A DNA stretch of 64,000 bases from Paractinoplanes abujensis. GTDB lineage: Bacteria > Actinomycetota > Actinomycetes > Mycobacteriales > Micromonosporaceae. This document shows, in pieces, positions 11,957 to 64,000 of the stretch. Location of the stretch: the NCBI RefSeq assembly GCF_014204895.1, contig NZ_JACHMF010000001.1, positions 5,952,001 to 6,016,000 of the forward strand, read 5' to 3'. Below the pieces are notes generated by a model that made no database searches, was not told the origin of the DNA, and worked only from the letters and a program-made list of their open reading frames with translations. The position numbers and the translations under genes are program-made. Within the stretch, counting starts at the first letter, position 1. The number at the start of each line of letters is the position of its first letter.

Positions 11957-13660
<1,704 letters not shown>

Positions 13661-61345: not shown

Positions 61346-62692
61346 CTACCGGAGGAACCCTTCGTAGTTGCGCTGCATGAGCTGGCTCTCGATCTGCTTC
61401 ACCGTCTCCAGACCCACACCCACCATGATCAGCACTGCCGTACCACCGAACGGGAAGTTCTGGTACTGCTGCGCATTCAGCCAGATGAAGAAGAAGTTCG
61501 GCAGAACCGAGATCAGACCAAGGTACAACGCGCCCGGCAGCGTGATCCGGCTGAGGATGAAGTCCAGGTAGTCGGCGGTGGGCTTACCCGGACGGATGCC
61601 CGGCACGAATCCACCGTACTTCTTCATGTTGTCCGCGACCTCGGTCGGGTTGAACGTGATCGAGACGTAGAAGTAGGTGAAGAAGATGATCAGCAGGAAG
61701 TAGACGCCGATGTACAGCGCGCTCGTCGGGTCGGCGAGCCACTTCTGGATCCAGAGCTGGTAGCCCTTGAGGTTGTTCGGGTCGAAGAACTGCAGGTACA
61801 GCTGCGGCAGGTACAGCAGCGACGAGCCGAAGATGACCGGGACGACACCGGCCTGGTTGACCTTGAGCGGGATGTAGGTCGACGTGCCGCCGTACATCCG
61901 GCGGCCGATCATGCGCTTGGCGTACTGCACGGGGATGCGCCGCTGCGCCTGCTCGATGAAGACCACCAGCGCGATGATGACCAGAACCAGAACGATGACG
62001 AGCGAGAACTTGCCCCAGTTGGTCGACTCCTTGATCGTCCAGCCCTCACCGGGGAGGCGGGCGGCGATCGAGGTGAAGATCAGGACGGACATGCCGTTGC
62101 CGACGCCGCGGTCGGTGATCAGCTCGCCGAGCCACATCACCATGCCGGTGCCGGCGGTCATCGTCAGCACCAGGACCGAGAGCGTGAGCCACATCGGCAG
62201 CCCGGTGTTCTCCGGGATGATCTGCAGCGTGGCGTCGTTCTGGTCGCAGGCGTTGCCGAACAGCTGACCGGTCCGCGCCAGGGCCACGAACGCCGAGGAC
62301 TGCAGGACCGCGAGGCCGAGCGTCAGGTACCGGGTGTACTGCGTGATCTTGGCCTGGCCGGACTGGCCTTCCTTGCGGAGCTGCTCGAGGCGGGGAATGA
62401 CCACGGTCAGCAGCTGCAAGATGATGGAGGCCGTGATGTACGGCATGATGCCGAGGGCGAACACCGAGAGCTGCAGCAGCGCGCCACCTGAGAACAGGTT
62501 CAGCAGGTTGAGCACGCCGTTGCCGGCGTCCTGGGAGTTCACGATGTCGATGCACCGCTGCACGTTGGTGTAGGACACACCCGGGCTGGGCAAGGTGGCG
62601 CCAAGCCGGTACAGCGCGATGATGAAGATCGTGAACAGCAGTTTTTTGCGCAGGTCAGGCGTCCGGAACGCACTAGTAAAGGCGGAGAGCAA
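61346..62692 (-). CDS. secY: Protein translocase subunit SecY, TTG start
   Basis: The 448-aa channel subunit of the Sec translocon. Ten TM segments are present, with TM2 plug region FSGGALLQLSVFALGIMPYITASII, cytosolic loops RLEQLRKEGQSGQ and RRIPVQYAKRMIGRRMYGG, and the C-terminal LMQRNYEGFLR. The start is a TTG (62692) with AGGAGGAAGAAG directly upstream; it gives MLSAFTSAFRTPDLRKKLL, aligned with known SecY N-termini. An extended open frame upstream is rejected. Unusually, rplO is not adjacent: about 1.1 kb and an opposing gene intervene. Confidence 0.97.
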   Translation of the reverse strand: MLSAFTSAFRTPDLRKKLLFTIFIIALYRLGATLPSPGVSYTNVQRCIDIVNSQDAGNGVLNLLNLFSGGALLQLSVFALGIMPYITASIILQLLTVVIPRLEQLRKEGQSGQAKITQYTRYLTLGLAVLQSSAFVALARTGQLFGNACDQNDATLQIIPENTGLPMWLTLSVLVLTMTAGTGMVMWLGELITDRGVGNGMSVLIFTSIAARLPGEGWTIKESTNWGKFSLVIVLVLVIIALVVFIEQAQRRIPVQYAKRMIGRRMYGGTSTYIPLKVNQAGVVPVIFGSSLLYLPQLYLQFFDPNNLKGYQLWIQKWLADPTSALYIGVYFLLIIFFTYFYVSITFNPTEVADNMKKYGGFVPGIRPGKPTADYLDFILSRITLPGALYLGLISVLPNFFFIWLNAQQYQNFPFGGTAVLIMVGVGLETVKQIESQLMQRNYEGFLR

Positions 62693-63290
62693 CTTCTTCC
62701 TCCTGCGCGAGGTTACCGCCGCAATCGGCGGATGGGGGAAGGCATCGGTCCGGACGACCGATATCCCTAGCTGGGAACGGACTCTAACAGTCTTGCGGGA
62801 GCGCGGTGTGTCACGGTAGCCGTCACCGCGCGTAGGCATCGACCAGGCCCGTAAAAGACCAGGTCAGACGCCACAAAGGGGATGCTGCCCGAGCTTCGCG
62901 TTCGCAGCGCCGGGAAGACACCCCCACGAGCTTGCGACTAAGCACCAGAGGCACTCTCGTCGCACAAGCTACCAGCGGAGGAGTGTATCAGTTACGCCCC
63001 GCTCGGCAACCAGCAGCCCGCGCGACTGAGCGCGGGGACAAAAATTTTCCGGGGCCCGGAGCGGCGCTCCCTCCCCTGTTAACGACGATCAACCCGGAAG
63101 CGCACTGAACCGGCACACCCGCAGGATCCGCATTGGTTGTGAACATTGACATGGCCGAATTGCTTTGCAAAACAAGCTCATTCCGAATAGAAATGTGCAC
63201 TCCCCATACGCATTGACCATCACTGAATGGCTGTGTTTGCCTTGGGCATCGGCGAACACGGGGTTGGCCGATGTTTACGGGAGGAATCAG
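62693..63290. other. 598-bp divergent region between secY and a secreted-protein gene
   Basis: No gene is supported. It contains a candidate secY promoter (62982-63009, separate entry) and a second -10-like TAGAGT (minus strand, 62781-62786). A leader inverted repeat relates about 62931-62940 to 62961-62972 (AGCTTGCGAC against GTCGCACAAGCT). Bases 63110-63240 are distinctly AT-rich and contain a consensus-like TTGACA (63146-63151) facing the secreted-protein gene. Confidence 0.6.
62982..63009 (-). promoter_or_regulatory. Candidate secY promoter
   Basis: On the minus strand TTGCCG (63004-63009), a 16-nt spacer and TACACT (62982-62987) with an extended TGA just before the -10. It lies about 290 bp upstream of the secY TTG. 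It is expected because rplO is followed by its own terminator. Found by eye only. Confidence 0.45.
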
Positions 63291-63698
63291 ATGCGTCACA
63301 GCATCAGGGCCGTTGCGGTCGTCGCAACCTTGGCCGCGTCCGGAATCGTATTCGCCAGCACTCCGGCCTCGGCCGACGCGCCGGTGGAAGCGTTCGCGTG
63401 TGCGATTTCCGTGACCGCTCCCCAGAAACTGGGCACCTCGACCATCCGGGTCACCGGGAATCGCAACACCGACTGCGGTACGGGTAACTCCACGCTGAAC
63501 CTGCAGCGTCAGCAGATCCCGGGGTTCTGGGAAACGGTCGCCAGCCGCACGCTCAGCGGCGGCGGATTCGGCTCCCTGGACTTCAACTGCAACGGGCGGG
63601 GAACACAGACCTATCGCGGCCAGCAGGTGGCGCGTCAGGTCGGCGGAACGACCCTCGTCAAGAATTCGAGCAACGTCCGCATCACCTGCTCGGGCTGA
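63291..63698 (+). CDS. Small secreted protein inserted between rplO and secY
   Basis: A 135-aa exported protein. It has a classical signal peptide (MRHSIRAVAVVATLAASGIVFASTPASA) with cleavage predicted after ASA (about residue 29). A mature domain of about 106 residues follows, Gly/Thr/Asn-rich and probably beta-structured (TIRVTGNRNTDCGTGNSTLNLQR...NVRITC). Its four Cys could form two disulfides. I recognise no family. GGGAGG lies 6 nt before the ATG. It runs against the ribosomal operon, and a 34-bp perfect palindrome follows its stop by about 28 bp. Function unknown. Confidence 0.85.
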   Translation: MRHSIRAVAVVATLAASGIVFASTPASADAPVEAFACAISVTAPQKLGTSTIRVTGNRNTDCGTGNSTLNLQRQQIPGFWETVASRTLSGGGFGSLDFNCNGRGTQTYRGQQVARQVGGTTLVKNSSNVRITCSG

Positions 63699-63726
63699 TT
63701 GCCGACGCCGGCTGACCGGTAACGGA

Positions 63727-63760
63727 AAGGGTGCCGCACGCGATCGCGTGCGGCACCCTT
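63727..63760 (+). terminator. 34-bp perfect palindrome after the secreted-protein gene
   Basis: The sequence is its own exact reverse complement (arms AAGGGTGCCGCACGCGA and complement, no loop required beyond ATCG). It begins 28 bp after the stop of the secreted-protein gene and can act on both strands. Confidence 0.85.
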
Positions 63761-63770
63761 CGCCATTGCC

Positions 63771-63806
63771 AAAAAGGGCGACCCGATTTCTCAGGCCGCC
63801 CTTTTT
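63771..63806 (-). terminator. Intrinsic terminator after rplO
   Basis: AAAAAGGGCG (63771-63780) pairs perfectly with 63797-63806. On the minus strand the stem ends in a T-run (CGCCCTTTTT), the classical intrinsic form. It starts 9 bp beyond the rplO stop and so cuts the spc operon before secY. Confidence 0.92.
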
Positions 63807-63815
63807 CAAGAAAAA

Positions 63816-64000
63816 CTACAGCTCGGTGACCGAACCACCGGCTGCGGCGATCTTCTCCTTGGCCGACTCGCTGAACGCGTGCGCCTTGATCGTCAGCGAC
63901 ACGCCGCCCAGCTCGCCCGAGCCGAGGACCTTGACGGGCTGGTTCTTGCGAACCGCGCCGGCCTCGAACAGCTCGTCCGGTCCGACCTCGCCGCCGTTCG
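63816..64000 (-). CDS. rplO: 50S ribosomal protein L15, C-terminal part (5' end outside window)
   Basis: The last 61 codons of L15 are visible on the minus strand: GGEVGPDELFEAGAVRKNQPVKVLG, then GELGGVSLTIKAHAFSESAKEKI and AAGGSVTEL before TAG. These match the C-terminal domain of actinobacterial L15, a 23S rRNA-binding protein of the spc operon. The gene is cut by the window end. Normally secY follows within a few bases; here an intrinsic terminator follows instead. Confidence 0.92.
   Translation of the reverse strand, partial: NGGEVGPDELFEAGAVRKNQPVKVLGSGELGGVSLTIKAHAFSESAKEKIAAAGGSVTEL

Follow-up and report, generated by a model that had tools for sequence, protein, structure and literature searches.

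A secreted-protein gene between rplO and secY of Paractinoplanes abujensis and the probable transcription boundary that holds it

The genes rplO and secY are among the best-kept gene pairs in bacteria. Three other genomes of the class, from two actinomycete lineages, in which genes stand between the two, provide the closest comparisons for the junction described here. Two of them, G302 and G348, which are Mycobacterium-like, belong to the same order and compare with the arrangement of M. tuberculosis, hold a Peptidase_S49 gene and LCM methyltransferase genes in rplO-secY intervals (L163, L164) of 8.8 and 6.3 kb. These inserted genes lie upstream of a promoter-like box (TGTTACTCT, TGTTANNNT) about 142 bp before secY. 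In the third, G308, an opposing gene of 180 aa from the Uma2 family of putative restriction endonucleases (PF05685, E 1.1e-27; L145:616-1155) is found upstream of TGTTAGAGT.

Here we describe the rplO-secY gap in the window, the whole 64,000-nucleotide stretch of Paractinoplanes abujensis DNA that was analysed, which comes from a genome assembled as a single contig of 9.33 Mb. The gap holds an opposing plus-strand gene for a 135-aa secreted protein, with a pair of hairpins between this gene and rplO. As in G302 and G348, rplO is parted from secY by inserted DNA, although the insert is one small secreted-protein gene rather than several genes over 6.3 and 8.8 kb; as in G308, a single opposing-strand gene stands on the rplO side of the TGTTAGAGT box that precedes secY, although the one in G308 belongs to the Uma2 family. 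The split in the window is real and rare, and it looks recent. Comparison across the genus and the family makes it probable that the inserted gene is a passenger in an old, insulated transcription boundary between rplO and secY, and the junction helps to explain how unrelated genes come to lie inside this pair.

The rplO end and the candidate secY promoters

On the minus strand of the window the 3' part of rplO (63816..64000; PF00828, E 8e-17) stops at 63816, the rest of the gene lying beyond the window up to what would be position 64265, and secY (61346..62692; PF00344, E 1.8e-114) begins at a TTG that is shared by 67/67 congeneric junctions. The secreted-protein gene is a plus-strand reading frame of 135 codons with four cysteines (63291..63698), and a divergent region of 598 bp (62693-63290) lies ahead of the secY TTG. 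Between the secreted gene and rplO stand a perfect 34-bp palindrome (63727..63760), with 17-bp arms that are 100% complementary and no spacer, and a hairpin set between A and T runs (63771..63806), with 16-bp arms that are 88% complementary. In all these particulars the layout agrees with the original prediction. The palindrome, whose T tail is short, is the likely terminator of the secreted gene, and the hairpin is the likely terminator of rplO, usable in both directions; its GC-rich stem is followed by TTTTT on the rplO-sense strand, as in an intrinsic terminator. A terminator scanner left out the 63771-63806 stem and reported another, at 63838-63818, which overlaps the stop of rplO.

A-type congeners, which are without the gene, have a long hairpin directly 3' of the rplO stop. 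The same hairpin is present in the window (62878..62925, minus strand), where the insert displaces it from rplO. Over the 90 nt that follow the rplO stop, folding was far stronger than in shuffled sequences: the mean z-score was -5.4 in the genus (z < -2 in 66/67 junctions), -4.3 in 60 junctions from other genera (53/60) and -4.4 in 20 class-level junctions (15/20), the last set having been chosen mainly for larger gaps and not at random. When the calculation was repeated for the genus with more shuffles, z fell below -2 in 67/67, the weakest congener reaching -2.4 and the window -10.1.

Past this hairpin, A-type congeners carry conserved DNA with TGTTAGAGTCC or TGTTAAAGTCC, and then a leader that runs to the Shine-Dalgarno sequence (SD) and the TTG. 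The candidate secY promoter of this kind in the window, P_A, has the extended -10 box TGTTAGAGT (62781..62789, minus strand), and its conservation was set against shuffles: TGTTAVAGT, the P_A type, occurs in 51/67 congeneric, 52/60 other-genus and 7/20 class-level junctions, at a median distance of 98, 102 and 103 bp from the start codon, compared with 1/3000 shuffled family gaps. Among the junctions in which the exact box is missing (8/60 in other genera, 13/20 at class level), seven of the eight from other genera have a variant (such as TTAGAGT, TGTTAGCAT or TGCTAGGCT) and one has none. A second candidate element, P_B (TGATACACTCCTCCGCTGG; 62972..62990, minus strand), gave a single match per genome, always at the rplO-secY junction, in 5/5 genomes searched. 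Sixteen congeners have P_B alone, with TGATACAGT inside a longer element replacing P_A, and a secY-proximal extended -10 box of one of the two types is present in 67/67 congeners.

TAGAGT (P_A) and TACACT (P_B) both match TAnnnT, which is the -10 consensus reported for Actinoplanes sp. SE50/110 (PMC7682106). For the -35 region, where an Actinoplanes primary-sigma promoter should have nTGACn at normal spacing, GTGACA was seen by eye 22 nt before TAGAGT in the window, and CTGACC at 18 nt in several congeners. A consensus promoter scan of 62400-64000 returned no sigma-70-like site, and among the open-licence papers listed in literature searches, judged by titles and abstract openings, none described an actinomycete secY promoter or secY leader RNA. 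From these sequence patterns we infer that P_A and P_B are promoters and the hairpins terminators. The earlier proposal that secY has a promoter of its own is probably right, given the box before secY in 67/67 congeners. In a continuous spc operon rplO and secY would be direct neighbours, unbroken by a terminator and a promoter; in the window the opposing gene lies between the two, and across the genus and the family the predicted folding and the box point to both kinds of element. The assumption that rplO and secY are normally co-transcribed is likewise not borne out by the sequences of this family, in that the 92-344 bp gaps of the 60/60 other-genus junctions mostly contain hairpin and box.

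Rarity of the insertion and nature of the secreted protein

SecY was found in 67/67 congeners, and all 67 junctions were measured. The gap is 213-277 bp in 47, 292-526 bp in 17, 967 bp in one, and 1123 and 1124 bp in two. Only these last two, the window genome and Paractinoplanes lichenicola LDG1-01 (G028), carry the secreted gene at rplO-secY (2/67), at 99% identity, and their junctions are the same (L013, L165). Misassembly was ruled out on this ground: because the independent assembly of P. lichenicola carries the gene too, it is strongly argued against. The A-type tree neighbours of the window have gaps of about 242 bp, so that the original description of the gene as an insertion relative to its relatives holds. 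In other genera of the family, rplO and secY are adjacent in 60/60 junctions, with gaps of 92-344 bp that leave no room for the gene; these junctions were picked from 95 non-congeneric genomes with a SecY match and cover all 43 other genera. Altogether the gene is missing from 125/127 family junctions examined. At class level, where gaps were read by hand from coordinates (60 genomes, 54 with an rplO match, 53 usable), the gap is 16-520 bp in 49/53 and exceeds 900 bp in four, namely the window's own genome, G308, G302 and G348; G303 was dropped, its two genes being on different contigs, and the gap of G350 was estimated, since its secY is cut by a contig end. The 967-bp junction of another congener (L063, in G047) is of the B type, about 500 bp larger, with reading frames unlike the secreted gene, and is possibly another, decayed insertion.

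The ATG of the secreted gene stands 6 nt after GGGAGG, and a longer in-frame reading frame exists from a TTG at 63165. The N-terminus of the protein resembles a signal peptide when read by eye, and its cysteines are C37, C62, C100 and C133. Between the window and P. lichenicola the protein is 99% identical and 18/20 nucleotide differences are synonymous (dN 0.0067, dS 0.191 by NG86; dN/dS 0.035 by NG86 and 0.023 by YN00). The gene is under purifying selection, with dN/dS of about 0.03, which rules out a chance reading frame.

The protein was modelled as an Ig-like beta-sandwich. Foldseek matches had TM-scores of about 0.5, and only four reached E 0.001 or better; the Ig-like domains matched (V-type, FNIII) and the RsgI4 sensor domain (7cg8, 7cg5) share only 5-16% identity with it. 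The modelled match would reflect a common fold and implies no function. All Pfam scores fell below the curated cut-offs, among them DUF3623 (18 of 27 bits, residues 3-68) and SEF14_adhesin (17.7 of 22.8 bits, residues 5-66), and no NCBIfam model matched; a sequence search of the PDB gave one match, at E 0.76, which was set aside as chance. Fifteen database proteins, the P. lichenicola protein included, match at E 1e-5 or better. The related proteins are small secreted four-Cys proteins of actinomycetes that have in common with the 135-aa protein an N-terminal signal-like stretch, conserved cysteines, a tryptophan and a CxGxGT-TYR-like motif; they are 24-63% identical in alignment, have no Pfam or NCBIfam model and, where checked in whole genomes, are located elsewhere than rplO-secY.

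Among 300 family genomes, seven have a match at E 1e-5: the window genome, P. lichenicola, G013 and four that belong to other genera. Seven further congeners gave only remote matches, with E at 0.01 or below, on other contigs or megabases away from secY. Neither rplO nor secY was found beside the remote homologues at 13 loci, nor within the 10 kb around the G167 homologue. One genome has two distant homologues on one strand, about 120 bp apart (L081 and L084, G107:C41:11659-12030 and 12150-12461), a possible tandem pair.

Cause of the split and origin of the insert

If the secreted gene is a passenger in an old boundary, the strong hairpin after rplO would end the ribosomal-protein transcript, and transcription of secY-adk-map would begin at a separate extended -10 promoter and open with a leader of roughly 85-90 nt. 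The small secreted gene with its predicted Ig-like product would have come into this boundary in the lineage shared by P. abujensis and P. lichenicola, oriented against its neighbours and placed after the rplO stop but ahead of the secY promoter elements. Convergent hairpins would separate it from rplO, making readthrough into either neighbour unlikely. The gap would tolerate insertions because both flanks are insulated, and the insertions before a similar box in G308, G302 and G348 support such tolerance. On this account the conserved secY box and the leader may offer a concrete control point for translocon supply in strong secretors.

The original prediction had been that the insertion itself cut secY-adk-map off from the transcription of the ribosomal-protein genes and supplied a new promoter. 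It is true that the insert adds two hairpins to the rplO-secY gap, and that the window lineage has an extra promoter-like P_B which its A-type neighbours do not have. However, the folding after rplO and P_A are found in congeners and other genera without the insert, and P_B is also present in the gene-less G007. Because the folding and the box exist in relatives that do not have the gene, the separation of secY would predate the insert; the claimed uncoupling is unsupported, and we consider it very unlikely that the insertion was the cause. The comparison suggests, rather, that the relatives share an old separation of secY from rplO and that a permissive gap accounts for the inserted gene, which did not cause the separation; this would correct the assumption that secY is co-transcribed with ribosomal-protein genes in these actinomycetes. 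A functional link, with the divergent region controlling an export substrate and the translocon together, would accord with the head-to-head arrangement and with the strong purifying selection on the secreted protein. It would also fit the spacer between P_B and the secreted gene (62991..63290), of which 63001-63290 is 93.8% identical between the window and P. lichenicola, more than the synonymous sites of the gene. Since it is this well kept despite a dS of about 0.19 in the gene, the spacer is constrained, and the sequence may carry shared regulatory sites; its part from 63101 to 63290 is AT-rich, at 52.6% GC compared with 71.0% for the window. Yet the arrangement occurs in only 2/67 congeners and 0/60 other-genus junctions, and the distant homologues stand apart from rplO and secY at all the loci inspected. 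Moreover, a script found no plus-strand TAnnnT ahead of the secreted gene in 62991-63290, and the candidate secY boxes are more than 300 bp from its start codon, at 502-510 bp (P_A) and 301-319 bp (P_B). We regard such a link as unlikely and infer that the secreted gene is a passenger uncoupled from secY.

How the passenger gene came to the boundary is a separate matter. In the window and P. lichenicola the insert sits between the rplO stop and P_B, leaving P_A, the old hairpin and the whole leader undisturbed. P_A and P_B stand in tandem in these two genomes and in G007, which has no secreted gene, suggesting a recombinant junction in the three species. One account, compatible with the main explanation, is import by homologous recombination from a B-type congener or relative, which would have delivered the rplO stop, the terminator and P_B together with the secreted gene, G007 later losing the gene. 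A tree built on about 3 kb of DNA upstream sets the trio within the A-only species as a clade of its own (0.947), with the 16 B-only species grouped apart. In its rplO stop codon the trio agrees with the B kind (TAG or TAA in 3/3 both-box and 16/16 B-only junctions; TGA in 46/48 A-only). Set against this, the likeness to B-type junctions extends over only about 24 bp around the box, no B-type congener has the secreted gene at high identity, G059 and G004 giving remote matches only, and support for the B group is only 0.58. The tree also places G007 beside the window genome, so that one must suppose either that G007 lost the gene or that it passed from one species to another. We hold import of part of the boundary by recombination to be plausible, and the full sequence of events just given to be possible but short of probable. 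Because G007 has both boxes without the gene, the boundary was also rebuilt in the lineage of the trio, and a regulatory change may have accompanied this rebuilding. A mobile element was rejected, no terminal repeats of such an element being seen in a list of inverted repeats of 62400-64000 whose arms stand no more than 100 bp from each other; elsewhere in the genome the spacer 63001-63290 finds a single match, 23 bp long. Identity between the window and P. lichenicola is 98.7% in rplO, 95.7% in the first 300 bp of secY and 77.8% in the terminator stretch; in the same place as 63727-63760, P. lichenicola has a diverged palindrome.

The secY leader

The more interesting part of the junction may be the secY leader, for which the support is mixed. 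The leader, with its SD (AGGAGG), lies at 62693..62780 on the minus strand, and the region 62693-62830 is identical between the window and P. lichenicola at 138/138 positions. Within 62693-62790 are two hairpins, hairpin 1 (TATCGGTC/GACCGATG; 62743..62763, minus strand) and hairpin 2 (CCGCCG/CGGCGG; 62716..62731, minus strand), and a CAGC box able to pair with the AGUUG start region. We tentatively suggest, while thinking it rather doubtful, that in the Micromonosporaceae the leader that follows P_A acts as an uncatalogued cis-regulatory RNA and adjusts SecY synthesis through a fold around the SD and UUG. Hairpins and box would fold around the SD and the UUG start, with feedback possible, and control would be independent of ribosomal-protein supply. 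If this were so, the boundary that takes up passenger genes would have arisen as a side effect of controlling the translocon separately.

The hairpins were counted in 91 leaders kept from the 127 junctions, after 16 B-only congeners, several other-genus loci without a box in range, and duplicates had been dropped; the set represents 37/44 genera. In an alignment-free count with one leader per genus, both hairpins with stems of at least 5 occur in 29/37 genera, compared with 10.5 expected from shuffles that take no account of relatedness. With stems of at least 6 the count is 17/37 (2.4 expected), and with at least 7 it is 3 (0.4 expected); hairpin 2 alone, with a stem of at least 7, occurs in 5 genera against 2.7 expected. 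Of the 91 leaders, 85 have hairpin 1 and 85 have hairpin 2, compared with 61.4 and 42.1 expected, respectively, and the sequences of the hairpin arms vary among junctions. RNAalifold, applied to a MAFFT alignment of 49 leaders in which hairpin 2, judged by eye, is misaligned, gave a weak consensus of 10 pairs, 3 of them changed on both sides. Folding energy is mildly low, with a mean z of -0.84 (n=91), or -1.5 in the genus (n=41) and -0.28 elsewhere (n=50), and the window leader alone gave z -1.40, with 17/200 shuffles as good. A search of 62693-62800 against the 4227 families of Rfam gave no match up to E 5. It is because the folding is only mildly unusual and the covariation in the alignment weak that we do not make a regulatory RNA our conclusion.

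We also considered the leader as an extension of the SecY coding sequence, the frame being open to an ATG at 62839. This was rejected because single-base insertions break the frame in L022 and L037 while the DNA stays conserved. The secY genes of two other genomes that belong to one genus (L166 in G153, L167 in G121) share a one-base deletion in the same place when compared with the secY of another species of that genus (L168). Given that the gene is essential, the deletion must be a long-read error common to both genomes or else a site of frameshifting; the error is favoured because the two assemblies are 89% and 93% complete.
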